The notes beneath the pieces are model-generated. The model worked only from the letters and a program-made list of their open reading frames with translations. It was not told the DNA's origin and made no database searches. A stretch of DNA of 64,000 nucleotides, taken from positions 23,687,713 to 23,751,712 of the forward strand of contig NC_092574.1 of NCBI RefSeq assembly GCF_037975245.1, read 5' to 3'. Made by a program: the position numbers and the translations under genes. This DNA is from Apostichopus japonicus (lineage: Eukaryota; Echinodermata; Holothuroidea; Aspidochirotida; Stichopodidae). Of this stretch, positions 8,775 through 62,559 are shown one piece after another (the first letter of the stretch is position 1; each line of letters opens with the position of its first letter).

Positions 8775-8947
8775 TCAATGTCTTTTCATATGCAGAGACA
8801 GATGATCCGATCGGGAAAATGCTCGCTCGCAATGAGGACATTTGAACGGCTTGTCTCCTGTGTGTTTACGATAGTGTCGGGTGAGCTCGTCAGACCTGGC
8901 AAAGCTCCAACCGCAGCCATCCCAAGTACACTTGTACGGCTTCTCTC
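8775..8947 (-). CDS. Coding exon 8: KLF zinc fingers 2 and 3, stop codon
   Basis: 173 nt; acceptor TCTTTCGTGACAG. Finger 2 contains [16 protein letters not shown] and finger 3 [14 protein letters not shown] followed directly by TGA (8777-8775). All six zinc ligands (C259, C264, H277, H281, C289, C292) and H305/H309 are present. The C-terminus HMKRH resembles KLF2/4/5/6 endings more than the RHMLV of vertebrate KLF3/8/12. Confidence 0.96.
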
Positions 8948-14900: not shown

Positions 14901-17900
14901 TACCTGCAGAGGTATGTGTGGTTGATGCAGAGCCTAACATGTTAGGATATCTCTTTGGACTGTTGGATTTCCTTTTGCGATTTCTTCCATTTATGGACAA
15001 ATCAACAGGTTCTGTTTGGTAAGGTTCTATGTGCACAAGTGTTGTCGGTGTCTGTGGGGAAAAATAGACAAAAAATAAAGTCATTACAGTGTTGCTCTTG
15101 AGCACTATAAGAAGACTACACTACACTGCAAGACATTTTCTGTACCTGTGGTGATGGTTTGTATACAGGAACAGCAGGCAGTGGCGTAGCTAAGGGGGGT
15201 CAAGGGAGGGCACATGCCCCTAGCGCCAGGTTTAGGAGGGCGCCAAAATGGGAGAATGAGAGTAAAAACAATAAGCACTTTTTAGAAAATTTTCCAGTTA
15301 CTAATAAGAATCTGAACTGAATATAGTTGTTTTTATTAGCAAATTTATAGATTGTGATTTCTTTTCAGTCCATTTCAACCGTTTTCTCTTTTCTTTATTC
15401 TGTTCTGTAGTCTGTAATGACTACATGTCACAGAAATTTGGGTATTTCAGTATACAGTTCCAAGGCAGTAGATTTAGAAATATGGAAATATCATAGGCGT
15501 AGGTGCACAATTTGATTTAGGGGGGGGGAGGGGGGCTGTAACGACTTGCACAGAAAATATCACCAAAAAATTCGTGCACAATTTATCTTTCTTTCAGTAG
15601 TTGGGGAGGGGGTTGGAGGGGGCGCAATTTTATACTATTGCACCTGGGTGCCAAAACCTCTAGCTAGGCCACTGACAGCAGGTACAGTAAAGTGTTACAC
15701 TTGATACATTAGTATATATATATATTTAAAAACACACAATATATATATAAAAAACACACACTGCCTTAAAACAACATTGAAAGATGGTTTGGTAATCAAA
15801 CTGATGTTCTTCTTTGAGGGAAGGTTGAACTCTTTGTCACAGTAAGATCAATCTGATTGCAACACAATTTCTATTTACTCAAAATGTTGACATGGCACAC
15901 CAAAACAAACACGGGTCAATACAACCTAACCATTAGTAATTCAAGCCGAAAGGTTCCTTGCTCGGTGCAACTGAAGGCCAGCTCTAAGGTAATATTTAAT
16001 TACTGAATTAAATTAAACAGTGCTCAGCACACTAAGATCATAAAGCTGTAACTGAGTGTGTGCAGACAGTGCCAAACCAAGCTATCGTTGAAAAACAAGA
16101 ATCTTATAAATGGTAGTCTTCGATTTAGATGTCGGAGATACATATCTCTAATTGATATTTTCTTATGATTCTAATGTCATGTACATAAAAGGGTGTTCAT
16201 ATCACTTCAGTCAGCTGACAATGGGGAGCGATGCTAAAGTGGTTCACAAAATTATTTTGGGTGGATGGTGGGAGTTTCCCAAATATCCAAAAATACATCT
16301 TCAGTGTTCGGAGCTTCCCAACAGAGAACTAACGACATTAAGTAACATTAAGTACAAGCTAGCTGTCCGAGCATTGATTCCGAGCGGTGGGGTTTTGGTG
16401 GGTCGTGGCTCAATCCTCGGCCTGGGTAATGGACCTCAAATGTATGCGGACTGCTGCTCTATCAGAACCGTGAACTGAAACCCTGTGTGAACGTGTGAAG
16501 GAAAACCATGGACTGCCATGCCTGGGTGAGGGCGCCAAACAGAACCATAAACTGATACCCAAGAAACGTCTGGGCGAGTGTGCGAACCGAAATGGTGAAT
16601 TAATAGCTTTAGTCATATGTGAGTGACGGTGCAAAAAGCAACCGCAAACTGATACCTCAGCAGCAAAGTCTGTGTGAGAAACGGAAACATGAATTGATAC
16701 CTTAGCCATGTCTTGGTGAGGATGAGAAACTTCTGGCCTATCTTCTTCGTTGTCCATTTCCTAGAGAAGACATAAAAATGAAAATTTTATGATGAAAGGA
16801 ATGTGCAAAATTTGATCAATTTAGTACCGAACAAGACAGAGAAGTTAAGGATTTACATCCCAATTAAATCAATTTTTTGAGTCAGGGCTTGGTAAACAGG
16901 ACGTTGGTAAATGTTCGTTCTGAAGACGGACTATCCACTTCTGTATGTCTAAAGATTATCAAGTGTTTCTCTTCATATGACAAACAATTGTTAGCACAAG
17001 ATTTATTCCAGGAGCAGAAATGGTTTAGCGTATTAACATTTGTCTACTTGGAAGAAAAACAAGTTTCTTTGTTAGCAAAGAGAATGCAAACCTGACACAA
17101 CTTTGGAAGTTTTTTCAAGCACTTTATGTGTGTTGTGCAGCATAGTAAAGTTGTTGCTTCACTACTGTGAACACACATATGTTAATACCTGTCTTTACAC
17201 ACACACACACAACAATAGTAGTCAGGGAGTGGTTATATTGCAATAAACATGACACCATGCATGCAGACTCTAGAGATATTGTAGTGGGACAGTGTGGCTT
17301 ATTGCTGGATGGATGGATAGAGCTCTATGTATTATATTTTGTTGACAGTGCATATGAATACAACAACAACAACAACATCTATTTCGCTGCACTTAAAAGT
17401 ATGCTGTACTGGCCCCAAATATGCTAGCTATACCAATATGGTCACCTTTGGTAAAAATTCTTACTGTTTTTATTACAACCTTAGATGAAATTTTCCTCAC
17501 CACTGGGACATTCAGTCATCTTGTGTGTTCCTTAAAAATGTCTGAGAACAATTTGGAGAGTAAAGACCTCCAGGAAATTACTTTTTGAAACTTCTAGCAA
17601 TTATAGCGTGCTAATTATACTGACTTCCTTTAACCAACATAGTTTCATCAAGACACAGATATTTGGTATTGTCCAATTGAGTTCAGGGTTAATATCACCT
17701 GTTAGATTTTTGTATTGCATTGAAACACAGCATGTACTGTACACAAAATTATTACAGATCTATATCAAAATAAACCAACACTTAAAAGATGCACATTACT
17801 ATGTATCCCCAACACTAGCAACACCAAACTTGGCTATGTGACTGTATTGTTTCAGACTATGTATCTTTCTGATGTAGCAAATCAGTAGCAAAAATTGCGA

Positions 17901-18316
17901 TTACAGTTAATGTTAGGTGACCACTGCTGGGTTAAATTCTAGCAAATTTGAATATTAAGTTATCAGTTATTTTCAAGCACCCAGTGGATTCACAATTTAG
18001 GATTAATACATCTAAGATTAACAGCAATGACCCTTCAGGGCAACTAAACACAACGGTGTTGATGACAGTTCAAATTAGGTGACCATAAACTATGGGTCTG
18101 TTAGGATATATTCTGCTAGCTTGTAACCTGTTTCCAAACAAAACAGAGTGATCATAACAAGTGAAAACCTCTTCTCCACCAACAATTTCCAAACAGGTAA
18201 ACTTACTCATGCATAAAATAACACATCTCTGACCTCACTGTACTATCTCTGTATATACACGCATTGTCAAACAATCCCAATACACTATTAGTGCAACAGT
18301 GTAGTCAAGAAAGACA

Positions 18317-18364
<48 letters not shown>

Positions 18365-21300
18365 TCACTAAAGGCTTCCCTTAAAGCAGCATTTTGCATC
18401 CTTTTCTATGATATTTCTCAACCTCACTGACTCCACTATGCCATAACGACATACATAACTAGCTTATCTATTTAAATCTGACTTCAAATGGTGGCATAAA
18501 AGTCGAAAAATTTGCAACTTTCAACTTTGTTTTTCTCCAAGATATTTTCCGTTGGGATCCCAATTAACCACGCCCATAATATGAATATTTAAACACTACG
18601 AACGTCATTGACCAATACGTAATCCAACAACAAGCTTGATTTGTGTACAGTCTATATGGCAGCTCTACCAGGGAGTTCCATAACAACTACCTGGTTGTGC
18701 CAACGCAAAGTCTTGAATCTATTTTTAGCAATGGCTCATAACTAAACCTGCATCTCTGATTGGTTGAATTCAAACTAGTGGGTTTGGGGTACTGTATGCG
18801 ATTAATTTTAAATGTGGAATTTTGTCGTGGATACATTTCTCATTCTCTGCAAATATCCTTAATTACTCGCCAATTAACGATGTTGGCAGGGAAAAACTTG
18901 GCTGATATCTTAGTTTGCTGTTTTGTGATTGATATATGTAAAAAACTCGATGGACATGTCAAAAAAATAGAAAACGGCGACCAAACGCAAAATGCTGCTT
19001 TAAAGAATCCAAACACTAACTTCAGCGTCACAAACAACAACATTGGAATTAACTAGCAAATGTTAAACAGAGACTTAAATACTGCATGCATACTGTCAGG
19101 GTCAAATTTTATCCTCAAAAATACCTTGTTGTACATGCTGATTGTACCAGGCTATGAGGAATCATAAGGCCTTGGGTGGGGGGGGGGGTGTTTAGCATTC
19201 ACTACAAAGTGTGAACAAGATTGAAACATTCTAGAATAGGCTACCCTGCAAGCGCTTGTAGTACCGTACAAGTGAGTGTTACAATACTAACACATTCTAC
19301 CAGTGGTGATTCAGCAGTGGACTGCACGACCAATACTGAAAGGTCATCAGAAATAATGACCTCAAGTATGCTAGAAGGTCTAATAATGGTCACACATGCT
19401 AGAACTTGAAGATGCATTTTCAACTCTGACCCTCAAAGAATTTCTTGTTCCTAATTTAATTGTCTTTAATTTAATTTTCATTTAATTGTTTACTTGGAGA
19501 CAGCTGGTTATCTGGGATTAATTGGAGAGTCAGAAACTCTAAGGAATATTCTTTTGAAAACTTTTAGCAATTTATAGCACAATAATAGGGTGAAAAAAAA
19601 GCCAAATACCAACTTGTTGTTATCTAATGACAATTGACCCTGTATAAGGGTAGGAACTGTGTGGGCCCTCAATCTAGCTGAACACTATGGAGTGAACTGT
19701 GATCATCAATTCCCAATGTTTTTACCAATGCTAAGAGCCTATACACCAGCTTGAGTCCAACTGAACAGCATGAAAATGGTGAAAACAAAATTCTCTTGGG
19801 AGTATTTAACAATTTTCTGCTATGTAACTTCTCTTAAATTGGTAGGCTATTAAAAAGAAAGCCAAAATACTGTTTGACTGGACCAGTTTCTTTGCCTCCT
19901 GCCAAAGAAATTTGAAAAATGCAAGATTTCCCATTTTTGGCGTTAAAAGTTCTTTGCTGGGTTTCTTTTTCCTATTGTTGTCTCCTTTTTGTTGGTTTGT
20001 GCCCAATTCCTCCCAGTTTTCCCTAACCACATGAAATTGTTAGCTGGAAAATTGTAGATCTCCCTATTTTTCGTGAAAGACATCTGGTATTATTTTTTAA
20101 GTGTGTGTGTGTGTGGATAGATCAGACCCTGACAAAACATAAACTTATCCTTCCATGCTCAGTCTACAGTATGACCAAGGTGTATCCATGACTACTTGAA
20201 TTAAAATGACACAAATCAGTGGTCCTATACATTGTAACAACCCGGTGAGAATCATACAGTACATGTGGAGAGACTACTGCATTTTGCATTTCTAGACTGA
20301 CTGTCTAGTAAACAATTCTGTCTGCTTTTCGCTGACTTTCAATTATCAGTAGGAGGAAAAACGCTACAGCATACATGATCCCGTAACCGAACTGCCATAT
20401 CACACACTGAAGAGTGTTTATTCTGATCCCGTAACTGAGCTCCCATATCACACACTGAAGAGTGTTTATTCTGATCCCGTAACTGAGCTCCCATATCACA
20501 CATTGAAGAGTGTTTATTCTGATCCCGTAAACTGAGCTCCCATATCACACACTGAAGAGTGTTTATTCTGATCCCGTAAACTTAGCTACCATATCACACA
20601 CTGAAGAGTGTTTATTCTGATCCCGTAACTGAGCTGCCATATCACACACTGGAGAGTGTTTGTTCTGATCCCACAACTGAGCTACTATATCACACACTAA
20701 ACAGTGTTTATTCTCTTGTCGTTGGATATTACCCAGAGGCTACAGAGAGCGTAATATTCATTCGCCATCAATGTAATCATTAAAGCCGACATCATCGCAC
20801 AAAGTTACAATTAACTATGTGCATTGCAGTAGATACAGTATCTCTCCACCGAGCTGGAATTCTTACGATGGAGAGTGTTAGCAAAGCTCTACAGATTTTG
20901 TAGAAAGGTCAAGCCAACGAGCATGCACGTAACTATTCTCCAGGCAGGAAGTCATTTATCCAGAAACCCTTTCCCCTCAAACCAGGACATCGTTTATATT
21001 CATGAAAACCGACCGAGTAGTACGGTAGAGGATATTCATAGCATTCAGCTAAAACAGGTCTGCTGCCTGTGCCTGCCATATTGAAGACAGACAGGATGGA
21101 TGTTCCAACATACAGTCCATACAGGTGACTGCTAATGTACAATATGGATAATACTGTGACTATACTTCTACTGTAGGTACAGACGTAGAGTGGCTCACAG
21201 TTTGGATGGTGATAACCAGTCCGTCAGTCTTAGTGTGCTACTGCAAGCATGGATTTAAAACATCAAGTATGGCCCACAGTGGCATAGCAAGAAGGGGGGG

Positions 21301-24300
21301 CCTGGGTCTCCCAAATAGACATCTGGCCCCCCAAAATGGTTGGACCTTCTGCTTTAGAAAATGAGTTCTGCCAGCACCTGGAAAAAAGCTTTGGGACCCC
21401 CAATGCAAAGAAGTCTAGCTATGCCCCTGATGGCCCATAACACACCTATGAGCTAGAGTCGCATTTTGAAATGCTATCTATGCAAAATGGTCAAATTGCT
21501 ATACAAATCCAAACATGTATTGTACCTTTATACACATGAACTAGAGACAACATTCTGAGCCTTCAAAGGTGTGACACAAAATTTTTGAACACAGTTTAAT
21601 TAATCCCTGAATGAATACCATTTTGTTGTCACCTTTAGACATCATCACACACTGTCAATACTGTAAACCATACAGTCCATTGACTAAACTATATGTATGT
21701 TATATATCGCTTTACATAAAAGACTATTCAATTACAGGTTTAAAATAGCACTGAATTTTTCTGAAAACAATAGAGGCCATTTAACTGGCAGCACTAATAT
21801 TACATAGCAGTTATGTCTCACAGCTTAAACATTTTATCATCTGGAACTAATAAGAGGAGCTATGCACTAATAATGAAGATCAATAACAGGAACCATGCAC
21901 TAATACTGAAGACCCAGGGTTAGCTTTAACCCCTTGTATTGTTACCATGTTCTTTACAGAACTTTGGATTCTCAAACAGTCCATGAGAATACTAGGCTAA
22001 AAATATGTTTTGATTTCCTGCAGGGGAAAGAGCTCCACAGACACACTACTTACACTGTACATACACACATCCTTCTCACAATGTCACTCTTTGATGTAGG
22101 CCTACCTTACTGTATGTGGACAGATCTACGATTATTCTGTTAATATCGGTAACTTATTTACCAGATAATCATATAATTAATCGACGACGGAAATGTTGGC
22201 TGATAAGAAGTTCCAACAGTTAGAGCTCTTCCATTGCTGTGATTTCTCTGGATCTGAGGCCCAGAAACATTCTTCTTGAAATTGTTACATGAATAATTAA
22301 TACAACCCATCACACTCATATACGGTTTGAAATCTGAACCACGGGTGTAAATTATACATTCTGTCTTGGGGAGAGTGGGGTTTTTATTTGGGGGGGTGGG
22401 TAAAAGGTGGTAAACATTTTATCTTATGTACATTAGCACTCACATACAAACCAGGAAGCTGCTGTGATGCTTGAACATAACTCAACAGCAAGAACACACA
22501 CCAGGAAGCAAACAATGATGGCTTAACATAATTTACAAAAAGCAAGCAAACACAACAGGAAGCAACAGTGATAGTTTAACATAATTCACAAAAGCACAAG
22601 GGAAGCAACAGTGATGGTTTCATGTAAAACAACAGCAGACATACACAACCATGAAGCAACAGTGTTCCTTTAACATAATGCAACAGCCACTAAACACACC
22701 AGGAAGCAAACACTGATTAAGGAAGAAACATTGACGCTTTTTAACTTTCTACATTGGTTACAGGCATGGCCCTCACTAAGCAGCAAAGTGCTAATGCCAG
22801 TTTTTTTTTTTTAACCATATTCTCCTATACTTGTTGTCTCATGTTCCCCCACAACCCCCTCCACCCTCTTACATAATGATTTCCCCAAACATTTGTTCCC
22901 TCAAATATGTTTTAATATTTCTCACCTAATAGCTATTGCCTCATCTTGTTCTCTCCTTCTCATTCTCGCATAGTTTATCCTGCTATGCTTGTTTTCTCTT
23001 TTTTTTTTCTTTTTTTTTTTATCAAACTTGTTCTGTTACATAGTTATTCCATCTTACCATAGTTCAAAATCTTTCTCTTATCATGTTTATCGCCTCACAC
23101 TTGTTCTCTCACATCCATCATCCTTGGTCGTAGTTTCTCATACTTTCAAACTTGTTCTCTCATGCTGGTTTTTGATGTACATAATTGTAAGTACTGTACA
23201 CAATTGCTGTTCCCTCACCAGGCGCATAGCCAGGAATTTTGCCAAGGGAGGGGCGAAACTGTAGATTCGGCATTGCAAACTATCTAAGCGTAGTGCCACC
23301 ATATTTGGCGCGAAGCGTACAAAAAAATTTTGGCCGAAAATGCCTCCAACACCGCTGGAAATGGCACTTCCCAGGCCTTGTAAGTTGCATCTTAGCATTT
23401 TCTCTTTTGAAAATACTAGCGATATAATAAAAACATTAATAAAAAAAATATAAAAATATTGCTCAAGGGGGGGGGGTTGCGGCTGCCCCCTTTGCCCCCC
23501 CCTTGGCTACGCGCCTGTCCCTCAGAGATTTTCTTTGAAAATGATTCTCTTGTATAAAACTTCTTCTCTTGCACTTCCTGCTTGATGCATGCTTTCCCAA
23601 AACACTTGTTCCTGTCAAACACCTTTTCATACTTCTCACCTCATAGTTATTCCCTCGTCTCTCTTCTTTTTAAAAGTGATTGTCTTGTAAAGCTTCTTCT
23701 CTTGTATTTAGCTTCCTCTTACTTGGACATCCTTACTTGTTCTCTCAAAATTTCTTTTCCTTCAAACCTAGACCTATATCACACTTGGTATCTGATACTT
23801 GATATCTCATACAAGTTGCTTACATCACACTTGGTATTTGATACTTTGTATCTCATATAAGTTGCTCATATCACACTTGGTATCTCATACTTGATATCTC
23901 ATATAAGTTGCTCATATCACACTTGGTATCTCATACTTGATATCTCATACAAGTTGCTTACATCACACTTGGTATTTGATACTTGATATCTCATATAAGT
24001 TGCTCATATCACACTTGGTATCTCATACTTGATATCTCATATAAGTTGCTCATATCACACTTGGTATTTGATACTTGATATCTCATACAAGTTGCTTATA
24101 TCACACTTGGTATCTCATACTTGATATCTCATATAAGTTGCTCATATCACACTTGGTATCTCATACTTGATATCTCATATAAGTTGCTCATATCACACTT
24201 GGTATCTCATACTTGATATCTCATACTTCCCCCTCCCATACTTACTGGATTTATACAGGGATGGCATGGGTCTTGTACATGTGCAGCACTGCAAGAAAGA

Positions 24301-27300
24301 ACAATACATTGTGAGTTATTATACTAAAAATCATTTCTATTCTTCAATATTACCCTTAAACATGTAACCACTGATCATCAAGTTCTTTGTTTTAACTTCA
24401 TGGAAAGCCAAAATGGACAAAAGGCATTCAAGATTTTCTTCGTAACGTTTTGCACTTTTGAAAAGCAGTCAATGAATGAAATGAAACTAGAACTGTATTT
24501 TATTTGTTTGCTTTTTATCTGTTCACATCAAAACTTAGATAACAGACAAATTTGCCATGATGTACATAGTCTCTCAATGCTCGAACTATATATAGTTACA
24601 TGTACTTCCGTGTAGTGTTGGGAGCCTAAGACAGAATCACGACCAGCTTTGGCTTAAGTATTAGAACAGTCAACAAGGTAAAATAATAAAAGATTTGCCA
24701 CTATGTTTCTGGTGATTTCCTTGGCATCACATGTAACAACTTCTCACTGCCAAGGTCAAAGGTGACTTTCAAATTGCTTCCTCCAATATCTCATGAGTCA
24801 AAAGAGTAAAACCCAGAGAGTAAAACCCAGAAACACAGTACAGTAATTTATTTTAGAGATCCTCCTATCTCTTTGTCTTTGTTTTCCTTTAAGCAAATAA
24901 CAGGAATCAGGAATTACTAAACAGTATTTGACCACTGGGCCCGCTGAGCATGTAAACCAGTGTATTGACCTGACCATTTGAGAGATCACGTTTCTGTGAA
25001 GTTTAAAATGCTATGAGTTTTCACTGGATTCAGCACCTCAGACTGTATCTAAGGAAATGATATTCGAATTTTATATGCAGTAGACTGTACTAATAAGGTG
25101 CAATACATATATATGTTACATAGCTAAAGAACTTTTATGTGAATGTCGAGCTCACTTCTGAACCTGAGCTAACCATCATTCACTGCTACAACTGTGATTC
25201 AGGCTCTTCGCTCGACCTTGGTCTACGGTATCCCTTCCCAGATTAGAATATTTTGAGTTCGTTCCAGATCATCAACACAGAATCTAAACAGGATAGCAGT
25301 TTCCGATCACCAAGTAGACCATGGAGCTTTATATCTAGAGTGGTGCAAACAAGGCAGCCATAAAAATGAATGTCCTCAAATTAACATCATGTCCTTTGGC
25401 TTTCAGAACCTCCTCAAGAATGGTTGAAGTGAAAACTTTGTTCTTCCCCAACCCTAGAGACCTAACAATTTCTTTCTGCCTTTCTGTTTTAAAAAAGGTT
25501 TACTATAACAGTTGGTGCAGTAGTATAACTGTACATGTATGTGAATTGACACCTGTACATATGAGACCCAAAATAGACACAAAAGAATAGACAAAGCAAA
25601 TCCCAACACTACAAACAGGGCCAACATATTCATGGGGCATCAGGACTTAACAATAGATATACAATGAATTTTACAGTCAGACAGTCTTTTAGTAATTGTG
25701 CTGAGCACTTTGCCCTTGCTGACTACGATTCCTTCAACACATGTACTACTGTATACAACTATATATATATATACCACAGTTCAAACAATCCTGGCAAGGA
25801 ATCACCTTGTCAGCAGGGCTACTGTTGCCACGATTAAACATTCCTGCTGAAGACTACAAGGACAAAACAGGAAGGGGTTTCTTTTCATTAGGAAGATGAA
25901 TCGACTGCCGTTAACCAAATATCTTCAGCTCTAGCTTTAATAACGATCAAAAGTTGTACAGTTTCTCCCATAGATAATAAAGTGTCGTAAACATTTTTAT
26001 TCCTTAAGGCTTGAATCAGAATCTGTAATGTACAAGTATCAAGATAACACTGAAAACCACTGTGAAAGTTAATCACCAACACACACACACACGCAAGTAT
26101 AGTGTATTACAGTATGTGCAACAATAACAAAGGCAAAAGCAAAAAGTTTTTGCAACTTTGGAGACTGGAGTGGCATTGTCGAGACAAGACATGTAATCAC
26201 TACATCACACTTGTCGATCAACTAGCCCACAGTATGCATTATGTAACACTCATCTAAATGTTGAATATTGAAGCACTCCCAATCGGCTATATCTCCAGTC
26301 TAAATGTACGGTAACGTTATACATAAATACTATACCATCACTTATTTCGAGAAATCTATCGCTTTCCTTGTTGAGTTTCCTTTGCGATTGGTGAATCTGC
26401 TGGAGAAAATATTTGTACGATACGCGTACTAATATTGTGCTGGCTAACTAAAGGTACTGATATACACTGAGGTTTCACTAGAAGCCTTTGAGTCACTTGT
26501 TATTTAAATGTAGAGTGTCAATTTATGCATTTTTCAAGTTACCAGTGTCAAATTCTACTCTCCAATGTCAAGTTCGCTAGTGCATACACATTTGTTGATA
26601 TCTTTCAGACAAAATAGAAATTTTGGATATTAGTCAGTGAATATTAGGAAATTGAACCTAAGGACTTTAAAGTAACCATCACATTACATAAACTTACCAG
26701 TAGGTTTTCTGACACCGATCACAGGCAAAGTAAGTTTGGTCTGTGTAAAGAAAAAACAGATAGGACATAAACAATATGAAAAACTTCTTACCGCATAACA
26801 ATATGTCACAGCCTGCAAAGAAGATATCGTAGGAGAAGTTCTGGAGCAATATTATTCAGACATGAGGCTGACTTCTTAAAAAAAAACACTATGAAAGTGT
26901 ATGGCAGAGTGAGTGTTCGCACTATGAGATGTACAGTCTAAGCCAGCTCGCGCACTGCATGCAAATATCAACTAGACCACACACATGATGGACATTGCAT
27001 TATATACGCCTTTTGTGTAGGCTTGTACCAGTTGTGCGAATGTTCGATTTGGGAGTTGGCATGAATATATATATATGTAAAGATATATAAAGTCATGAAA
27101 TTCTCGGAACTGTACATCGAGGGACCGACGCTGTAAATAACAGCACTGACGATATTCTCCCTGACGATAATTCTCTTCCCAATTAGATGAAACGATGTTT
27201 CATCTTCTTTTCTTTCTTTGACAAAGATGTGTGAAAATTTGCATAAGTCTGGAAAATACAAAACCACGGAAAATTTAAGGAAAGAAAAGTGGGAGGTGAT

Positions 27301-30300
27301 ATACAACAAAGAGGAAATCTGTGTTCCTGTCGAAAAAAGCTCATGTCTGATTATATGTCAATTAACTGCTTTATCACCTCGATAGCTGACAGTGGTCAAG
27401 GTCAACCAGGGTTAAACTTTTGACCTTTCACACCACCTGTATTTACTAGCAGTGTAAATAAATATATATAAATATATATATATACAGTATATATATATAT
27501 ATATATACATTTGGATCCCTTTGTGTCTCTATCTATAATCAACAAAGTGAACAGCATGAGAGAACTATCAGATTCCAGCCCCCCCCCCCCCCAAAAAGAA
27601 AGAAGAAATTCCACAGGGTACTTGCAGAGAATTGATGAAGTATACTGCACATGTACTGTACCTTAGCTGCTGAAAACGAAACGATTCTCGAAATTCAAAT
27701 ACACTCTTTTATCAAAACAACTAGGAGTACTTCAATGGAAAGGAATGCAGGTACTGTAACTCAATAACAGGCATTATTCTTTTGTTTCACCTTCTAATGC
27801 TAATCTGAATGCATTTGGAAATTAACATATTTGCTCAGGGCAAGTTTGATCAAAGATTTCAATGGTGTGATATTTTGAATAGATCTGTGATCTCATTTCT
27901 AGGGAATTTTTAGTGCTCAGACCTGAAGAAGGCTAAAACCCTATGTCCACATCATTATGTCTTTGAAGGAATGTATATAAATGCCTTCTATAGACTTCAG
28001 CATTGCTATAAAGCTACCTCATACTATCACATACCATAAGGTGGCCATATTTTCTTCAGGAAATCCAGGAACATGGTATTGATCTTGACCCTTCCCCTTC
28101 CCCTCCCTGGTCATGATGACATCAAGGGTAATTCCCTACACTGCATGTTTAAAGGTTGTGCCAGGTGGTTCTATGCTACAAGGATGTTGGTCAAATGCCC
28201 AAGTTTAGAACACCTCATTCAGAATAATCTATCTATCCAAGTTAAAAACTACAATGCCAGAAAAACTTTGAGGGTAACTGAGTAATCTTATTATTCATCA
28301 TTTACTGTAGTACAACATGTGAATTAGATGCTGTGAAATGAGTCAATGATCTGGTTCCTTTTATCTGCTACAGGGTAGTCGTGAATAAACTTTACATTTG
28401 TAGTTGTAAACAATCACAGAGCTCTGTAGGACACTTTTAATCTAGGGACGGTACAAGACACCCGAGGATTGTCCCCACAAATTGGGGACATCTGGTCACC
28501 TTATCATGACGGTGAAACCCAAATATATTTTATGGGGGCTAAGGGGACTATTTGGGGGGCACAGGGAGCTATTTTATGAGTTGAGTTTGTAACATTTTTC
28601 ACACGAAAAATCAATCATGAAAATGTATCAAATGTTGTATGAAATCTGACAGGATGAACAACAATATGTAATCCGAATGTGGAAATAGCGATTCATATTT
28701 TTTTTACATTTGGTGATCTCTTTATTATTTGTTATTTCTTTAATGGGGGGCGGGGGGACCGTGGCAAATTATATCTCTCCATTTTGCCAGATCTGTACTT
28801 TCAGGCTGAGAGCCACGGCTATGCTTGATTGATTATCCGTACGTATAGCCCTAACATAACATACTGTAGGCTATCACGAAAAAAGTAAATAAACAATCAT
28901 TATTGGCGGGAATTGCTGAAACTTAACGTGCATGTGCATAACTATTTCCTAAAGCGGACGTAGGCTATACAAACACAAGGTGTGCATCAGGAGAAATTCC
29001 AACTGGACATACTCTAATAGCATATACCACATGTTGCAATGACTGAATTGCGGCACTGATGAAATTTCGCAGAGCATGGTGCATCGAAAACATCAACATT
29101 TCCTGGACTGAAAATGTTGTATTCAAACAGAAATAATTGGAAAATAATGACTGATTTGTATGATAGGGTGACTGAAATTAGTCATAACATATCTTAGTGA
29201 CTTGACAATGGGGGTGACTTTGCTCGCAGCTCTATTTTCTTCGCTCTCATGTCGGTTTTCAGAGGGCAAATCGCCTGCCGGCCCCGTGTATAATTGACAC
29301 TGCTAATCATACTACCATGGCGCATACAGTGAACAATATTAGCTTGGCAACCTTTGCTCAGCACAATTTTTTACAGTCTATTATAAATCTCTGATCACAT
29401 TTGAGGCAAATTTCAGCAAATCTTTGAAAACAGCATATAGAGATGAAAATTAAAACCATATCTTCGCAGTCTCAAAGCAGCATTGTAGATTGTATCATTA
29501 TAGCAAGACATTATTTTCATTCCCCCCCCCCCCCTTTTCCCACACTACACTTTGTGTTGCCCATAATCTATGTGTCAAGACCAAGAACTGCATGTACTAT
29601 TGTGTTCATAGAGTGGTGTATCATAACAATGTCACTAACAATCTTTGTACTTCTTCTATATTTCTCTCTTTCATATGTATTTTGTGCCTTAAATTTTGAA
29701 AAACCTTTGGAAGGGCAAGATGGCAACACAATGGAAACTTTTGAAATATGTGTCTGAAACTAATGGGGTCTATGATCTTGCCAATTCTGCCTGTTAAATA
29801 AAAAAAAAATTGATAATTTCTAGGATTATGCTCATGCACTAGTAGGATGAATAATTGTAAGATATATGATATATGATTTTATAAACCTTGAATTGAACTG
29901 AGCCTAAATTTTAACTTAAGAACAGTTAATACTAACTGGATGAGGAAATGGGGATTTCAGATTTTACTAGATCGAAACTAACTGTCATTGGGAAGCCTAT
30001 GCTTTTCTTGGTACCAATTGCAATTCTTTAATTTTCTGCATATCAACTGAACCGTAGCTCAGTTCAAATGGTTATTATTTTCAGAACACCACAGTGTTGG
30101 GTTACAACATAGACCTAGGGCCTACAGTCACTGTTGTGAGTCTATGATGATACTTAATTTTATGACTATCATTCTCAATCGTACAAGCTCCAAATATTCC
30201 TTTGTTTTTAAAGGCTTGCTGGAAATACTGCTCGAATGCAGTGTACAGACAATCTACAACAGTGACGAAGTGTAATGTATAAACCACGAACTTAAGGCGT

Positions 30301-30897
30301 GCATTAAATTTGCATGTACTTAGGCCCTATACCACGACATAATGTTAGGCCTAACATCATAGACATTATACGATAGACATAACGAACACGGCAGTTCAAT
30401 TCGTAACTGGGTTTTGCGAAACAAGCATTCATTGAAATGGTCGTTAATGCTAATTGTATCTTATTCCTTTTGGCATAATTTGGGGTAGAACATTATCACT
30501 CGTGTAATGTTTGGAAAGTAGGAACATTAAATTAACTCAAAGACACAGGTGCATTTTAGTAATGGAAGGATACATACATTAAAGTATATATTACTAGTAA
30601 CACTAGTATACAACAGTACTAATTCAGCAGTTCTCGAGTTGTACTGGGTGTGTGCGTCACTGCACTGGGCGTTGTTCATGGGCATGGCAGGGTGTGTACG
30701 TAAACACAACCAACAACGCAACAACTTTTCCTCAAGTTATACATAAAAATTAACTCACCTTTTTCGATGCATTCATCATAGTTACAGTATTTGTTTCTAT
30801 CAGAATATTCTACGAGCCCATTTTCGTGTGATATTTCAGTCGTGGTGTTATCTGTCATCCAGCAGTCCTCTGGTGTACGGGACACGGTAGTCGCCAT
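8775..30897 (-). CDS. KLF3/8/12-type transcription factor with N-terminal AN1 zinc finger (8-exon model)
   Basis: Model: join of 30897-30759, 26740-26698, 24288-24246, 16760-16701, 15051-14904, 13971-13821, 10601-10429 and 8947-8775 (minus). All junctions are GT-AG and phases agree throughout (1,2,0,0,1,2,1), giving 309 codons. Residues 38-72 fit the AN1 pattern C-x4-C-x9-C-x2-C-x4-C-x2-H-x5-H-x-C. Residues 107-116 read [10 protein letters not shown], the CtBP-binding motif of KLF3/8/12 (closest to KLF12 by eye). Basic stretches follow at 117-124 and 211-225. Three C2H2 fingers occupy 229-251, 259-281 and 289-309, with KLF linkers TGEKPY and TGDKPF. Known for the family: nuclear binding to CACCC/GC boxes and repression through CtBP. 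Odd points: the AN1 finger, unknown to me in any KLF; the protein ends on the last zinc-ligand histidine, without the C-terminal extension after that histidine seen in vertebrate KLF3/8/12. The KLF part is near certain. The join of the AN1 exons to it rests on phase and order alone; they could be a separate gene, with KLF starting at the ATG at 16757. Confidence 0.68.
8948..10428 (-). other. KLF intron 7
   Basis: Bounded by matching GT-AG sites. It contains a poly-G run at 9193-9210 and otherwise AT-rich sequence. No further gene or element recognised. Confidence 0.85.
10429..10601 (-). CDS. Coding exon 7: basic region and KLF zinc finger 1
   Basis: 173 nt, phase 2 to 1. Acceptor TTTTGTTTCTATTTGACAG, donor ACAG|GTAAAAGG. 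It encodes a basic stretch ([15 protein letters not shown]) and finger 1 (C229, C234, H247, H251) with the KLF recognition segment [15 protein letters not shown]. The exon break just after HTG in the first linker is a common KLF exon boundary. Confidence 0.93.
10602..13820 (-). other. KLF intron 6
   Basis: Holds the 3' end of a plus-strand LINE (about 11,690-12,142). The remainder is unremarkable AT-rich DNA. Confidence 0.75.
11690..12142 (+). mobile_element. 3' end of an L2/Crack-like non-LTR retrotransposon
   Basis: A decayed coding tail (with [19 protein letters not shown], resembling the arginine-rich C-terminus of LINE reverse transcriptases) is followed by T-rich sequence with TTGTATTTTG motifs. 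It ends in GGGATTCAATAAAGTTGAC and an (ACTT)n tail. The arrangement is typical of L2-type LINE 3' ends. The 5' part is truncated; the clade is inferred from the tail. Confidence 0.6.
13821..13971 (-). CDS. Coding exon 6: KLF linker region
   Basis: 151 nt, phase 1 to 2. Acceptor TCTTCATCTGGACAG, donor GCTGA|GTAAGT. With the G from exon 5 it reads [20 protein letters not shown] and onward to RFQQA. No domain is recognised. It is Ser/Thr/Pro-rich like the disordered middle of other KLFs and contains a second motif-like IDLTDL. Phase continuity on both sides supports it. Confidence 0.75.
13972..14819 (-). other. KLF intron 5
   Basis: Shared by both exon 5 forms. Nothing recognised apart from the donor duplication at its 5' edge. 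Confidence 0.75.
14791..14950. repeat. Tandem duplication spanning the exon 5 / intron 5 boundary
   Basis: Copy A 14867-14950 (84 bp) and copy B 14791-14866 (76 bp). Copy B lacks 8 bp (CACATGAT on the plus strand). Each copy contains coding sequence, the donor (CAG|GTAGGT) and the first intronic bases. Confidence 0.95.
14820..14903 (-). CDS. Alternative 84-nt extension of exon 5 (28 residues)
   Basis: Open in the exon 5 frame. It largely repeats the preceding residues (both copies contain [15 protein letters not shown]) and ends at a second near-identical donor, TCAG|GTAGGT at 14819. As 84 is divisible by 3, both donors leave phase 1 and both join exon 6. Use of this donor is inferred. Confidence 0.45.
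14904..15051 (-). CDS. Coding exon 5: CtBP-binding PVDLS exon (short form)
   Basis: 148 nt, phase 0 in and phase 1 out. Acceptor TATTTTTCCCCACAG. It encodes [20 protein letters not shown] followed by a basic stretch (GRNRKRKS) and a Ser/Thr-rich tail. The PVDLS site and its position before a basic region match vertebrate KLF3, KLF8 and KLF12. Donor GCAG|GTAGGT at 14903. A duplicated donor at 14819 allows a form 84 nt longer (14820-15051). Confidence 0.85.
15052..16700 (-). other. KLF intron 4
   Basis: Contains one hAT-like element (15179-15674), a short AT microsatellite near 15711-15750 and the degenerate repeat that overlaps the exon 4 donor. Confidence 0.65.
15179..15674. mobile_element. 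hAT-like non-autonomous transposon (copy 1)
   Basis: Ends CAGTGGCGTAGCTA and TAGCTAGGCCACTG form imperfect terminal inverted repeats. It is flanked by a perfect 8-bp direct repeat ACAGCAGG (15171-15178 and 15675-15682), as hAT transposases produce. 496 bp, no coding capacity, G/C homopolymer-rich near its ends. Confidence 0.85.
16440..16701. repeat. Degenerate ~45-52-bp repeat at the exon 4 donor
   Basis: Five or six diverged minus-strand units start near GGTATCAGTTTATGGTTCTG. Two units carry in-frame A/GAG|GTATCA potential donors 45 nt apart (16701 and 16656). Confidence 0.6.
16701..16760 (-). CDS. Coding exon 4: acidic linker, possible alternative KLF start
   Basis: 60 nt, phase 0 at both ends, reading [20 protein letters not shown]. 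Acceptor TGTCTTCTCTAG, donor CTAAG|GTATCA (weak after GTA). If the AN1 exons belong elsewhere, the ATG at 16757-16755 would start a 233-residue KLF. The reading frame stays open beyond the donor to 16410 through a degenerate repeat, and a second in-frame GAG|GTATCA donor lies 45 nt downstream at 16656. Confidence 0.55.
18322..18364. repeat. (TA)n-(GA)n microsatellite
   Basis: About 16 TA dinucleotides followed by five GA dinucleotides. Confidence 0.95.
20377..20714. repeat. 48-bp minisatellite, 7 copies
   Basis: Unit starts GATCCCGTAACTGAGCTCCC and ends GAAGAGTGTTTATTCT. Two copies have 49 bp through one extra A; the last two are most diverged. Frames of 16 residues recur across it on the minus strand and are by-products. 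Confidence 0.95.
21277..21429. mobile_element. hAT-like non-autonomous transposon (copy 2)
   Basis: 153 bp with ends CAGTGGCATAGCAAG and CTAGCTATGCCCCTG, flanked by a perfect 8-bp duplication ATGGCCCA (21269-21276 and 21430-21437). Its interior is rich in GGGGG/CCCCC. Confidence 0.85.
22450..22735. repeat. Degenerate ~55-bp tandem repeat
   Basis: About five diverged copies around ACCAGGAAGCAACAGTGATG followed by TTTAACATAATTCAACAGC. Confidence 0.75.
23219..23517. mobile_element. hAT-like non-autonomous transposon (copy 3)
   Basis: 299 bp. Ends CAGGCGCATAGCCAGG and CCTTGGCTACGCGCCTG are inverted repeats. 8-bp flanks TCCCTCAC / TCCCTCAG differ at one base. The interior is clearly related to copy 4 (shared GCGCGAAGCGTACA-type and CTTCCCAGGCCTTGTAA segments). 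Confidence 0.85.
23777..24236. repeat. 46-bp minisatellite, ~10 copies, next to AN1 exon 3
   Basis: Unit starts TATCACACTTGGTATCTCAT and ends ATATAAGTTGCTCA. Copies are very similar. The array starts about 10 bp inside intron 3, next to the exon 3 donor. Confidence 0.95.
24246..24288 (-). CDS. Coding exon 3: AN1 finger end (43-nt exon)
   Basis: Acceptor TTGTTCTTTCTTGCAG, donor CCA|GTAAGTATGG. Completing Cys61, it reads [15 protein letters not shown], which gives C-x2-H-x5-H-x-C, exactly the second half of an AN1 finger. It ends in phase 0, matching the next KLF exon. A 46-bp minisatellite starts about 10 bp into the following intron. Confidence 0.7.
24289..26697 (-). other. KLF intron 2
   Basis: Bounded by exon 2 donor and exon 3 acceptor. 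Nothing recognised beyond short AT tracts. Confidence 0.6.
26698..26740 (-). CDS. Coding exon 2: AN1 finger middle (43-nt exon)
   Basis: Acceptor TTTTTTCTTTACACAG, donor CTG|GTAAGT. In phase with exon 1 it reads [14 protein letters not shown] plus the first two bases of Cys61. It supplies the C53-x2-C56-x4-C61 spacing typical of AN1 domains. It is too short to show up as an open reading frame; both splice sites are strong. Confidence 0.72.
26741..30758 (-). other. KLF intron 1
   Basis: Contains TA-rich microsatellite sequence at 27460-27508, poly-C near 27580-27592 and 29522-29534, and a stretch near 28,470-28,500 (GGGACATCTGGTCACCTTA) that looks like one end of a DNA transposon without a matching partner. 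No coding exon recognised. Confidence 0.55.
30759..30897 (-). CDS. Coding exon 1: start codon and first two AN1 cysteines
   Basis: 139 nt, 46 codons plus 1 nt. The ATG has A at -3 and G at +4, and an in-frame TAA lies 9 nt upstream, so this is a convincing start. The N-terminus ([20 protein letters not shown]) is polar and acidic. The exon carries C38-x4-C43 of the AN1 finger. The donor is AAAAG|GTGAG at 30758. A 4-kb intron follows. Confidence 0.72.
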
Positions 30898-30936
30898 GTT
30901 ACGTTATAAGGCGAGACTCGCCCACTAAAGCTATTG

Positions 30937-30974
30937 CCACACCCACCGAGCATCCGGGACATTGACTCCGCCCC
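30937..30974. promoter_or_regulatory. CACCC box and GC box just upstream of the KLF start
   Basis: CCACACCCA (30937-30945) and CCGCCCC (30968-30974) lie 40-77 bp upstream of the ATG, in the 5' UTR or core promoter. Both match the CACCC/GC sites bound by KLF and Sp proteins, so autoregulation is possible. The transcription start is not known. Confidence 0.35.
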
Positions 30975-32496
30975 AAGGTCAGGAATTGCCATGGTTGAAC
31001 AATGACGTATTGGCGATACCCTGGGAACCTCATTGTTACCTATCACAGGGAACCTGCATTACATTTTACAAGTACATTTTAGTGTGAATTTTGCAGGAAA
31101 ACAACCATACAATAATCTACGCGATATAACCCCATACATGATCCTGGAAACCTAGCGCGATGTTCCCATACTTAGCCTATACTAACTGACAATAAGGACA
31201 GAACTGGGATCCTACCACAACGATCGCTAGTTTTAAACGGATATCTTTCAAAGACAGTTTTAAACCTTCTCTTTCCTCTCCTTGTAATATCCACCTTCAA
31301 AGTGGAAGAAATAATATCGTGCTACCACCGATATGATATTACTGTAGTAGTGTAAAAGATTCTCTTATATACTTTTAATATGCAAATGAAATGCAAAATA
31401 AAAGTGAACGAATTTTGTTCACACTACAACAGTACTTCACAACTTTCCTGGATGCTTCTTCGGTAATTGAATTATGAAATATGTTTAATGTTGGATTGAG
31501 AGAGACATATCCCTCTCCTCTCAAATGGTTATGACAATGAGGTTGGGAAGAGGGCAAAAGCTCAAACCTAACTCAGATAAAAACAATTGGTGGCAGGGAG
31601 TAATTCAAACAGGAAGTGGATCTGTAATTGTCCTACATGACGGACAATTGTAATGTGCGTCCACCGGTATCATATATTGTGAATCGGTAACGAATGGGGG
31701 GGGGGGGGGTAGCATTAAAATTATTACATCATAGCAAACGATGACGTCATCAAATCCCTTATTAAACCAGATAGCTTTGTAAACCTGTTGTATAATCCAA
31801 CGTATACCTCAAACTGTAAAAAATATCCTAAGACATAAAAATAGTTGCATTAAATTCAAACTTGTGACCAATGTCTATGTCATCTAACCGAGAGCCTAGA
31901 TCTTGGTCGATTTCAAGACCGACTTGGTTTTTGGCGACCGACTGTAATGACAAGCAAAGCAACATATCGAAACATTAACTAACAAAAGGGGGGCCGCAAG
32001 GTGTAGCATTTTGTTAGCCTAATATTACCCCCACCCCCAGAAAAGGTGAAAGTAAGGGGAGTCAGTTTTGTTTTATATGGCAGCCGACTGGGGGTGGGGA
32101 AACTGGGAGGTAAGCATCACTACTGAGGGAAAATGCCCACATTAACACCTTTCCACCTCTGGCGACGGGATGCCAAAACCTCCTGTAAAGAATGCAACAG
32201 AAGCACCATAACCCTACGTCACGCCTCCCTGTTGAACTGCCCATTGGCACGGATGTTTACCACGTGGGTTTGAAATCGGGGTAGTGACTACAGTGACATA
32301 GGCTGAGGCTGTTGGGGGGGGGGAGGGGTGGAGGGTACCAGCCAGGATGATTGTCAAGATTGTCACGTGCATCGTGTTTCCTACTAAGTAAGGTAGGAGG
32401 TGGAGAAGAGGGACTGGTGGGGGTGGTTATATATTAATTGAGTGTCTCATGAGTCATATGATTCCATATAGTATCATCGATTCCATCATCAACCCT

Positions 32497-32508
32497 TGTG
32501 TGTGTGTG

Positions 32509-32539
<31 letters not shown>

Positions 32540-32546
32540 ATGTGTT
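32497..32546. repeat. (TG)n microsatellite
   Basis: About 23 TG dinucleotides with a few interruptions. Confidence 0.95.
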
Positions 32547-35415
32547 TGAGCGTTTAACTAATGTATATGTAAGTCATGATATACATCAACGATCATGAGA
32601 GCAACTAGTCTTTGCATCTTGTCTTTCATGGTGGGGATGGGAAAGGTGAGGGGTATATGGCAACCGTTCTCAGATCATTTGTACAACAAGCCTTATCTAA
32701 ATGAAATATAATATCGCCTAACAAATTTTCTGTATTATACATATTTAATCATGTGGGATATATGGTGATAATGTAATCGAAATAAGTTATTGACTAATTA
32801 CAGATACTAGAAGATGCTAAGACTAGTGTATCTACTACTCATCATTACCTAAATAAGTGATTAATTCTTTTCATGATTTATTGCACCACCTATCTCTAAA
32901 GGTTTCATTTAAATAATCATCTCCGCTTTACCTCTATATATTGTCTCATTTAATTTGTGTCGTTTTGTTTCAAAGTCCATAAACCAATTATTTTTACATA
33001 ATCGTGATATGGCAGCATCGGCTTTTAGCCAAATACATAATAATAAACCATTTGGAAACCTCTTTAAATCATGTAAAAAAAAACATGAGATGATTTCATC
33101 ATTGATCCGATTCTCCTCGATAGTGCAGTTTTTTCTTTCCTTGCCTGATTAGGGGTTGGGGGTGGGGGTTCATATTGTAGACATAAAATTAATCATAGTC
33201 ACCTTTGTCACCTTAAGACTTAGTGACGTATCAGAGATTGGTATGAGCAAGGTTAACATGCTTGTCATTGTCATCGCTTGTGGTGAAGATGTATTGATCG
33301 CGAAGGGTTGGATGAGGCGGGTAGTGGGGGTGCGGGTTGGAATTCGATACTTTGTGGGACCTCTCCTCGCCCGAACAGTATGGCGGGTTGGGGCGGGGCA
33401 TTCAAATCGCTTCCAGTAATGGTTGGAACCAGGATAAATTGCGTGTAAAGCTGGCGCTCTGACGTATTCCAACTTAATTAATGGATTCACTGCAACACAA
33501 CCGCAGATTTAAATTTGATTTTCAATTTCCCATATGATTTGATATTGTGATAAATTGAAAGATATTTTTAAATATCTTTAAATATTTTAACTTAATTATA
33601 TCTAGGCTGTGGGATTAAAATCTAAACTGGCTTGCCATACGGAAGCATAATATGTTATGCCCCGACTTGGGGGGAAATACTGCGTCTGGCGATTACCCCT
33701 CCCCCTACAGTTCTGTTTCACAAACTTGAGAGAACTTCTGTTCCAATTGCTGTGGAGCTAAGTGTAGTCTTTCTATAAATGTTGGTACTATATCAAGAGT
33801 TTCTTATGTGTATGCTTTTACATCTCAGCCCGACTGGAGACTGTAGGTATAATATACTCTATATAATAATTGCCCCATTGACTTCCCAATCGTTATGTTA
33901 TGTAATATCTAAAGGCATGTGATTAAGTTACAAACTAATCTCACCGAATAACTAGTAGTATCAATTTTCAAAATTTTCTAAATTTCGCACCGCAGATATT
34001 GCTATTAAGGCAGCATACGTCATATAAACACACCCAAATGGACGCACACTAAATAGAAATGTCAAAATAATGTCATGTCCAAATCCTGCAGTAGAAGTAC
34101 ACCCTATACCCATTGGATTGCTAACATATTGGAAAATCATGGAACATACAAGTTTCCGTATTCCGTTAAGTGGTTTGTTACCCACGAATGACCAGTTTTA
34201 CGTAACTCCTAACCAGCCTCATTCTCTGTGATGGTCTTGGAAGGTCTAAGGTGGTCTAACATTGCCTCAATGTCCGAAATTATCGTGCCACATGTACTTG
34301 TATTTGTGCACTTAGACACCCAAGCAACCCCCTCTCCTTTCCCCTTCCGAAAAAAAAACGATTTGATTACTATCGGGGGAAAATGTTTCCTCAGTGTTGT
34401 CTCATTACACTTGGGCCTATATGAACATTTGGACGGCTCGACATGGACTATGTATGCAACCTTAACGTACTACGCTATACACCCCCCCCCCCCCCATTAC
34501 TCCCCCAAAATCAAAGTCGTACCTTGAAGCATTTCTTAAAAGATATCCTCCTTTTTGTTCTTTTTTTTCTTTTCGGCACCCTAAGTTATTGAATAGACGC
34601 TATTTGGCGGTTGGTGACTCTACTAGTAAGGTAAAATAGAGGGCGTCAACACAATATTCCAGCCGGAGCCGAATGCAGAGATTCTGATCCAGCCAGAGCG
34701 GTATAGGGCAGCATACGCCCGTTAAAAGCCCCATTGCCTTACAGGTACCGCACCACAAAAATAAGATTAGTGTTCATCCGTCAAAGACCTGCCAAATCAT
34801 AGAAGTTTTCAACTGGTATATCCTACCCGCCACATGATAGCTGAGATATTGTCCTATCATGGCACTTGCAAACTTCCATATCATGACCGTTTAGATTGTG
34901 AGGTAGAAGAGGAACAAGTTTAGCAAACTGAACCCCAACCCTTCCATGTGCTCGCTCGGAGTAATATCAACATTTAACAAAAGGTTTTCTAAAATGGTTT
35001 AAATCACTTTCAATCCTCCCTATTTTCACACCATCTGTACTTTATGATATGCTCTTTCACATTAAGGCAGAAAGAAACAATGATCGACCCTGATAATATG
35101 CTTAAACAAGCATTACATTAGGTGGGTTTAGCTCTTTTTTTTTCGGACATTGGTTAACTTTTCGAGAACATATACACTACTCTAATTGTGGTGCGGTATC
35201 TATGTAGAGGCAACAGATATACAATTGACTTGTGCATACTCGTTCAGAAAATTGTGGAATATTTTGAAACTTTCTCTCTTGTTGTACCAGTTAAAATATA
35301 GCTTGAGAATGCTATAAAATGTGATTATTTTATTTATTTTACAGTTTAGGGCTACTTGATTAAGAATTGTCGAAATAGCAGTGTCATGGCAAAAAAAAAA
35401 AAACAAGGTTTGTAC

Positions 35416-35674
35416 CCGGGGCGTAGCGAGGAATTTGCCAAGTGAGGGCGAAGCTTGTAAGCAAACTATATAAGCGTGGCGCCACCATATTGTCGCGAAG
35501 CGTACAGGAAAATTTTGGCCCAAAATGCCTCCCAGATCGCCGGAAATAGAACTTCCCAGGCCTTGTAACATCCAAGTATTTTTTATTTTGAAATTACTAG
35601 TGATATCATACAAAAAAAAATTGCTGAAGGGGGTGGGGGGCGGGTGGGGCGGTCGCCCCCTGGCTCAGCGCCTG
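35416..35674. mobile_element. hAT-like non-autonomous transposon (copy 4)
   Basis: 259 bp, related in sequence to copy 3. Perfect 8-bp duplication GTTTGTAC (35408-35415 and 35675-35682). Left end CCGGGGCGTAGCGAGG, right end CCTGGCTCAGCGCCTG. Confidence 0.85.
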
Positions 35675-35808
35675 GTTTGTACAATTAATTTAAAAGGGTT
35701 CCAAGATAATGGTCAATTTTGTCCCAAAAGTCTATCCGGATAGAGATTTATAATAATATAAATAATATTAATTCACTAAATTATAATACAATGAGTAAAA
35801 GTATGTGG

Positions 35809-35847
35809 GCCTGACGTTTCGATCCTAGCAGGATCTTCTTCAAAGGC
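35809..35847 (-). mobile_element. Penelope-like / hammerhead-ribozyme-like motif
   Basis: On the minus strand, GCCT pairs with AGGC (stem I), followed by TTGAAGA, a GATCC/GGATC hairpin (stem II) and GAAACGTC. This matches the hammerhead order CUGANGA - stem II - GAAA - GUC, with U for the first C. I recall similar GACGTTTCGATCC motifs in Penelope-like retroelement ends; this is from memory and untested. Confidence 0.35.
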
Positions 35848-36909
35848 AGAATGACAAGTAACAGAAACTACAAGGGACAAAATACAAGCACAGAATAAAG
35901 ATAGGTTAATTAGCATGGTAAACACAAAAGAGATTTTTTTTAATTATTATAAGTTAAGGATGTGAATTGTTGGGGATCAGTCTCATACGTCGCGGTTGGA
36001 ACATTCCACTATTATGTAGGGGTGTTTTGTATTTGTGTTCAATCTAAAACAGTCATTGTTTTGTCGTCCTCAAATTATTTTGAGAACAACACTTCACTCC
36101 CTAACCTTTGATAATTGAATGAATTAATATTAATTATATTATCATTGTTAATCCCTTACTTTTATCGATAACGACCGAGTAAGAGGAAAGAATGACTGGG
36201 TTAATGAAACAGGTTGCTGAGGTTATGATCACCCAAATCACAATATAGAAGCTATCACAGTTCTGGAATAATAGAGATGGTTCCTATTAGTCCGTTGGTC
36301 CACCTCTGCATTTAGTGAGAACATTGGTTCTCCTTTTGAGCGAGTACCGAAAAACTATGCCTTCGTCGTATGCTTTTATTTATTTTTATCGCGAAAAAAA
36401 AGCAAGAACAGAATTTAACAAGCAGGCCATGTGCACCTATTATGGAAAATAACAACAGATATCAAATAAATACAGGAAGTTGTGATTAACATATTTTTTA
36501 TTTACATTATTTCTGTAATTACACGGTTTGCTTTTGTATACTACTAATTTGTAGGTCAAGGTTTTAAGAGAAAAGGAATAAATAATTCCACTTCGCAACC
36601 CTCCCTACCCCCACTACTACTATGGCATACCTACAGTACTAATTTCTTAATCCCTTTGTGCAGGTGACACATCAAAGACCTGCATGAAAAAAAATATGCA
36701 TAGATGATTGCATTTTAATGGCATAGTTTCATCATAAATTGAGGACAAATATACCCTAATGATTGCTTATTTTAAAATGATGTAATACTTATCAAATGAG
36801 ATTATGTGTGGCCCAATGCCTCATAGCAATACTTAAAACACTGCCACCTAAACACCCCCCCCCCCCCCGCCATCCCATCACAAAACTTATAACTTATGTC
36901 ATTCCTATA

Positions 36910-46716: not shown

Positions 46717-46784
<68 letters not shown>

Positions 46785-62400: not shown

Positions 62401-62451
62401 TTCGATACAGGTTTCTTGTACCCAATAAAGATTTATTATAACTACCTCATT

Positions 62452-62497
62452 ATGGCTGATCCGGGGCGCGACCGAGGCGGCCCGGGACCCCTCGCTT
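62452..62497 (+). CDS. Possible first coding exon of a plus-strand gene leaving the window
   Basis: ATG with A at -3 and G at +4, then 15 GC-rich codons reading MADPGRDRGGPGPLA, and a consensus donor CTT|GTGAGT. Unspliced, the frame continues to a stop at 62559 (35 residues). GC content jumps sharply against the AT-rich surroundings. No protein family recognised and no second exon found. Confidence 0.25.
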
Positions 62498-62559
62498 GTG
62501 AGTTTGGTGGCACTATAGCTGCAACATATGATAATTCTGCTACAAACAAGGTGGAATAA

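Follow-up and report, generated by a model that had tools for sequence, protein, structure and literature searches.

An AN1 zinc finger module in phase with a KLF3/8/12-type repressor gene in Apostichopus japonicus, a candidate domain fusion

The window analyzed here is a stretch of 64,000 nucleotides of the Apostichopus japonicus genome (C14:23687713-23751712; the genome searched has 671,581,487 bases in 35 contigs), and its minus strand codes for an AN1-type zinc finger followed by a gene of the KLF family. The finger is split among three exons. The first (E1, 30897 to 30759, 139 nt, phase 0 to 1) contains the ATG, 37 residues ahead of the finger, and the first AN1 Cys pair; the second (E2, 26740 to 26698, 43 nt, phase 1 to 2) carries the middle of the domain and ends within the codon of the fifth Cys; and the third (E3, 24288 to 24246, 43 nt, phase 2 to 0) closes it with C-x2-H-x5-H-x-C. 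Once spliced, they code for a peptide of 75 amino acids with one full AN1 finger at its end, and the ligands of this finger (C-x4-C-x9-C-x2-C-x4-C-x2-H-x5-H-x-C) follow the eight-ligand C/H pattern of AN1 domains. The ATG of E1 is preceded by an in-frame TAA, with two codons between them. Splice sites were scored with weights set by hand, and those of the three exons fall in the top 0.07 to 1.6% of all minus-strand GT or AG sites, the E1 donor ranking among the best 0.07% for GT. The initial annotation had described three minus-strand exons, two of them of 43 nt, coding for the full AN1 ligand pattern and framed by strong splice sites and an in-frame stop before the ATG, and all these features were recovered when we derived them again. 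It had also pointed out that skipping the AN1 exons breaks the frame, which agrees with the lengths involved (43, 43, and 86 nt), as none is a multiple of 3.

Five exons of the KLF gene lie further along the same strand. Exon 4 (E4, 16760 to 16701, 60 nt, phase 0 to 0) carries an ATG of its own, 3 nt into the exon and with favorable surrounding bases (GAAATGG); its acceptor scores well (top 1.3%) and its donor poorly (-0.5, top 13%). This is the least certain exon of the gene, and a KLF-only protein could possibly start from its ATG. Exon 5 (E5, 15051 to 14904) codes for a CtBP-type PVDLS motif (EPVDLS), exon 6 spans 13971 to 13821, exon 7 (10601 to 10429) contains the first KLF C2H2 finger, and exon 8 (8947 to 8775) contains the second and third fingers and the stop. 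Pfam identifies three zf-C2H2 stretches with the spacing and linkers of the KLF family, and the structures of KLF4 and KLF5 match across all three fingers (E values of 1e-45 to 1e-47). Among the genome matches listed, which are a part of the 291 obtained from the best 150 of 1023 candidates, this place alone matches the PVDLS exon, and it is also the only one among those listed to cover exon 6. The putative PXDLS CtBP motif located N-terminal to the fingers, together with the known vertebrate sequences, suggests that the gene is of the KLF3/8/12 type. As in KLF3, KLF8, and KLF12, PVDLS stands ahead of three C2H2 fingers with KLF spacing, and the intron between fingers 1 and 2 falls in the TGEKPY linker. 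These three proteins recruit CtBP via PXDLS and repress CACCC-box genes; to our knowledge, the vertebrate genes have non-coding first exons and no AN1 domain.

Two minor features were seen around E5. The exon contains an internal duplication (14820 to 14980) that provides strong donors at both 14904 and 14820 (6.9 each, 84 nt from one another), so a 28-codon in-frame alternative of the exon may exist. Just upstream, at 15179 to 15674, lies a member of an older repeat family, with at least 39 copies and a fragment at 76 to 86% identity.

The AN1 profile of Pfam (zf-AN1, PF01428) recognizes the isolated 40-amino-acid domain with 29.3 bits (E value of 9.1e-7) versus a gathering cutoff of 27.9, and falls below this cutoff on longer peptides (27.1 bits on the 75-amino-acid peptide and 23.5 on the 309-amino-acid model described below). 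The score is therefore marginal. The three best PDB sequence matches were a RIKEN cDNA product and two ZFAND1 AN1 domains (E values of 0.001, 0.003, and 0.035). Two transposase chains also appear among the weak PDB matches (E values of 0.62 and 8) and the tail of the finger can be read as H-x4-C-x2-C, which, together with the marginal Pfam score on the longer peptides, would fit a finger that has decayed or arisen by chance, such as a cysteine cluster of the transposase type, and that is not expressed as an AN1 domain. We consider this highly improbable, as AN1 is the sole Pfam family under an E value of 0.04 for the isolated domain, the frames of the three exons are open, their splice sites are strong, and the exon positions, the phases, and the length of E2 agree with those of ZFAND1 and ZFAND2. 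A piggyBac-type origin of the finger, raised by the same two PDB matches, was rejected on account of the exon structure shared with ZFAND1/2 and of AN1 being the only convincing Pfam family.

Pattern searches gave a similar picture. The E2-type pattern, which combines splice sites, two Cys, an aromatic residue, a split Cys codon, and the exact length, has one match within the window and one match each at the ZFAND1 and ZFAND2 loci, and it was absent from 60 first-order Markov copies of the window and from 109,179 bases of 30 kinase loci. The E3-type pattern has 1 match in the window versus a mean of 0.03, while the E1-type pattern, taken alone, is not significant (2 matches versus a mean of 1.23). 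The three exons thus encode a genuine AN1 finger and not a chance arrangement of cysteines. What puts its identity beyond doubt is the gene structure, that is, the intron positions and phases in common with ZFAND1/2, rather than the marginal Pfam score. A search of the genome with the PF01428 profile returned four other AN1 places and missed the finger of the window, because its exons are too short to match singly, so we do not take this as counter-evidence. The 75-amino-acid peptide used as the query recovered the three exons plus two matches with E values above 1.

The first AN1 finger of the ZFAND1 gene of this genome has its two introns where the window finger has them, one in phase 1 ahead of an Asp and one in phase 2 inside the codon of the fifth Cys; its exon 2 is also 43 nt long, and its exon 3 runs from phase 2 to phase 0, as E3 does. 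ZFAND2, in the same genome, has the same first boundary, a 43-nt exon 2, and an exon 3 with a phase-2 start and C-x2-H-x5-H-x-C. By the inner intron positions and phases of its first AN1, which are those of the ZFAND1/2 group, the window finger belongs with these genes, in which the first AN1 is likewise distributed over exons 1 to 3. The difference is in what follows, since ZFAND1 and ZFAND2 go on to a second AN1, and no second one was detected in the window gene, whose finger is followed in phase by the KLF exons. A ZFAND1 query against the genome matched the second finger and the C-terminal domain on contig C3, with none of its five matches in the window; the second finger also matches ZFAND2 and IGHMBP2. 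At the protein level, the window finger shares 10 of 35 positions with the first AN1 of ZFAND1, 10 of 35 with the second AN1 of ZFAND2, and 13 of 35 with the finger of IGHMBP2. Sequence identity singles out no AN1 as the nearest, and by its intron positions the window finger is closest to the first one of ZFAND1/2; given such low identities, the relation must be old.

E1 to E3 and the five KLF exons, eight in all, form an in-phase chain that runs to one stop and gives a 309-amino-acid frame with an AN1 finger, PVDLS, and three C2H2 fingers. E3 ends in phase 0 and the next same-strand exon, the 60-nt exon at 16760, begins in phase 0 as placed, just as the initial annotation had it. A phase match at one junction alone occurs by chance 1 time in 3 and is worth only a factor of three. 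E5 likewise begins in phase 0, and as no ATG precedes PVDLS within it, translation must come either from a phase-0 coding exon further upstream or from an in-frame ATG at 15084, which lies in the intron ahead of E5 and in a poor context. A direct join of E3 to E5 also keeps the frame, because E4 has 60 nt and runs from phase 0 to phase 0. Codon-usage scoring, on a set of 5326 codons from the 24 of 30 kinase segments without stops, failed to tell true from false frames on exons as short as these.

Two arrangements could account for this chain. In one, a single gene begins near 30.9 kb and ends below 8.8 kb, and its main mRNA would code for the 309-amino-acid AN1-PVDLS-three-C2H2 KLF protein. 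In the other, there are two tandem genes, an AN1-only gene of about 81 amino acids, ending at the 22017 exon or another terminal exon, and a KLF gene with its own promoter that starts at the E4 ATG, the phase match between them being due to chance. The terminal exon in question (21997 to 22017, minus strand) would add EIKTYF and a stop to the AN1 frame, and its acceptor at 22017, with a score of 9.8, is the best of the 3771 AG sites of the minus strand and of the seven acceptors, other than that of E4, that score at least 3 between 24245 and 16761. An ATTAAA at 21600, the good context of the E4 ATG, and the ATG of vertebrate KLF3, which lies in a short second exon, also count in favor of tandem genes. 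Against them, the good acceptor of E4 leads us to expect a preceding exon, and a lone AN1 stopping six residues past the module would be atypical of the ZFAND1/2 group, both of whose members in this genome have a second AN1.

The CpG content of the locus bears on the same choice. In a starfish, most methylated CpGs are reported to fall within gene bodies (65% intronic, 26% exonic, and 1% in promoters; PMC12550476), and in A. japonicus, methylation at CCGG sites is described as lying mainly within gene regions (PMC8027599). With methylation centered on gene bodies and scarce at promoters in echinoderms, the extent of transcription units should be traceable by their loss of CpG. Between the AN1 and KLF exons, the interval from 16761 to 24245 (minus strand) has an observed/expected (o/e) CpG ratio of 0.32 unmasked, with a median of 0.24 for 500-bp windows, and appears intron-like by its low CpG. 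The unmasked values are 0.44 for 24289 to 30000, 0.51 for 8775 to 16700, 0.37 for 37001 to 58600, and 0.69 and 0.88 for two upstream stretches (31001 to 36500 and 59016 to 64000, respectively). With repeats masked, the interval decreases to 0.26 over 5255 bases; as the mask covered only 15.2 to 24.2 kb, masked values are not on equal terms with those of the other stretches, and the comparison was redone with nothing masked, in which the interval is still the most CpG-poor of the stretches compared.

The sequence ahead of each candidate first exon was compared with that of seven control genes (VCP, HSP90, CCT2, PSMD14, ZFAND1, ZFAND2, and SLC6), taking the 1.5 kb that precede the first coding exon identified, the position of which is approximate for VCP, HSP90, CCT2, and PSMD14 (first protein match) and for SLC6 (first SNF match). 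The CpG o/e is 0.64 before E1, 0.20 before E4 (repeats masked), and 0.46 before E5, and 0.81 over 30001 to 31500, so that a CpG-preserved, promoter-like stretch can be placed upstream of E1 (30898 to 31500, minus strand). Six of the seven controls have upstream values of 0.62 to 0.95; the exception is HSP90 (0.17), which is as poor as E4. E1 therefore resembles the 5' end of a gene and E4 an exon with a distant promoter, contrary to what tandem genes would predict. These values have their limits. Control gene bodies range from 0.16 to 0.38 in all seven cases, while the stretches taken as gene body after E1, E4, and E5 (0.41 to 0.50) are less CpG-poor than any of them; four of the control genes are housekeeping genes, from which a KLF may differ in CpG; and low CpG may outrun the end of a gene, as at the SLC6 gene, where it extends to about 37 kb, past the last SNF match at 46.7 kb. 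A test based on the best 500-bp CpG window near the 5' end (0.85 to 1.48 in the seven controls, 0.94 at E1, and 0.75 at E4) was set aside as nonspecific, as unmasked gene-body stretches of the window also reach 0.88 to 0.93.

The interval is not uniformly poor in CpG. Its largest CpG-rich patch (18380 to 19003) is a young mobile element with at least 39 copies at 95 to 98% identity, and 23219 to 23518 is also repeated, with at least three matches. Another patch, at 20715 to 21045, has 13 CpGs in 331 bp (o/e of 0.89) and adjoins a 48-bp minisatellite (20376 to 20714); no repeat match to it was found among those listed (best 40 of 150 candidates scored). A further stretch, beyond E4 at 16200 to 16700 (o/e of 0.71), is likewise unexplained by repeats among the matches listed. 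Either of these last two could be an internal promoter or enhancer and, in the first role, could mark the promoter that the tandem genes would need.

Taken together, the CpG evidence leans to one transcription unit starting at E1. Along with the chained phases and the need of E5 for an upstream phase-0 coding exon, it favors the single gene with an AN1 N terminus, which we regard as the somewhat likelier account of the locus, and tandem genes seem to us rather unlikely. We infer from the exon sequences that E1 to E3 and the KLF exons are spliced into one polypeptide, as the initial annotation had proposed. That proposal holds in part: the finger is genuine and in frame with a PVDLS KLF gene, and the CpG profile leans to one unit, but the E3-E4 splicing is predicted, and a KLF-only start and an AN1-only end are both possible. 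A further arrangement is that one gene makes both products by alternative splicing, with the 22017 exon acting as a terminal exon of a short AN1 protein or as a poison exon, and its skipping giving the fusion. The strong 22017 acceptor, two possible donors at 21633 (score of 2.6) and 21446 (3.4), and frames that permit both products are consistent with it; nonetheless, the exon is a candidate, and such splicing, which we judge improbable, would be compatible with the single-gene model rather than opposed to it.

If E1 to E8 belong to a single gene, a KLF gene may have taken over, as its 5' end, the promoter and exons 1 to 3 of a gene resembling ZFAND1/2. The three-exon AN1 module, with its own start codon and its phase-0 end, could supply a start to any phase-0 exon. 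ZFAND1 connects stress granules with the proteasome and p97. The AN1 finger could bring the repressor a partner tied to ubiquitin, the proteasome, or p97, and the stability or corepressor complex of the repressor might in this way respond to proteotoxic stress. A CACCC-box sequence, GGGTGTGGC, is found at 30944 to 30936 (minus strand), about 40 nt before the E1 ATG, and is a possible site for self-regulation by the KLF itself. We offer only tentatively the complete proposal of a KLF3/8/12-type CtBP repressor that captured a promoter and three exons of the ZFAND1/2 type, thereby placing proteasome/p97 stress sensing on a CACCC-box repressor that possibly regulates itself through this box.

The combination of domains had been presented as new in the initial annotation, which has to be narrowed, since AN1 and C2H2 fingers are already known in one protein in the plant SAPs, such as ZmSAP8, which is described as a nuclear protein with an AN1-AN1-C2H2-C2H2 arrangement and thus differs by its two AN1 fingers (PMC9696418). 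The AN1 motif printed in that paper begins with C-x2-C. The ZFAND1 found among the PDB matches has a C-x4-C start, as does the window finger. We know of no plant SAP with a KLF DNA-binding domain or a PXDLS motif. A search of open-license PMC papers for AN1 together with KLF, all terms being required jointly, found none, which is weak evidence of absence. Novelty would lie in an AN1 finger on a KLF DNA-binding domain with a CtBP motif, provided that transcripts bear it out.

In that case, the locus would clearly exemplify how the gene of an animal transcription factor can gain a domain at its 5' end, an entire domain, spread over three exons and bringing a start codon and a phase-0 end, having come to stand before a KLF. 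It would also connect CtBP repression with protein quality control in an animal noted for regenerating its organs, and an adaptor linked to ubiquitin or p97 on the repressor might affect its turnover or its complexes under stress. The CpG comparison, for its part, is a cheap and rough means of weighing gene fusions without RNA in genomes with mosaic methylation.

Other genes were seen in and around the window. An SLC6-type transporter gene, recognized by SNF matches, occupies 46720 to 58883 on the minus strand, and this strand has more SNF matches some 25 to 32 kb to the right of the window. About 9.3 kb to the left, at C14:23678212-23678448 on the plus strand, there is a further KLF-type finger exon (77% identity over 79 residues), which is convergent with the KLF gene of the window. 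We presume that it is perhaps KLF5-like, as KLF5 and KLF12 adjoin in vertebrates.
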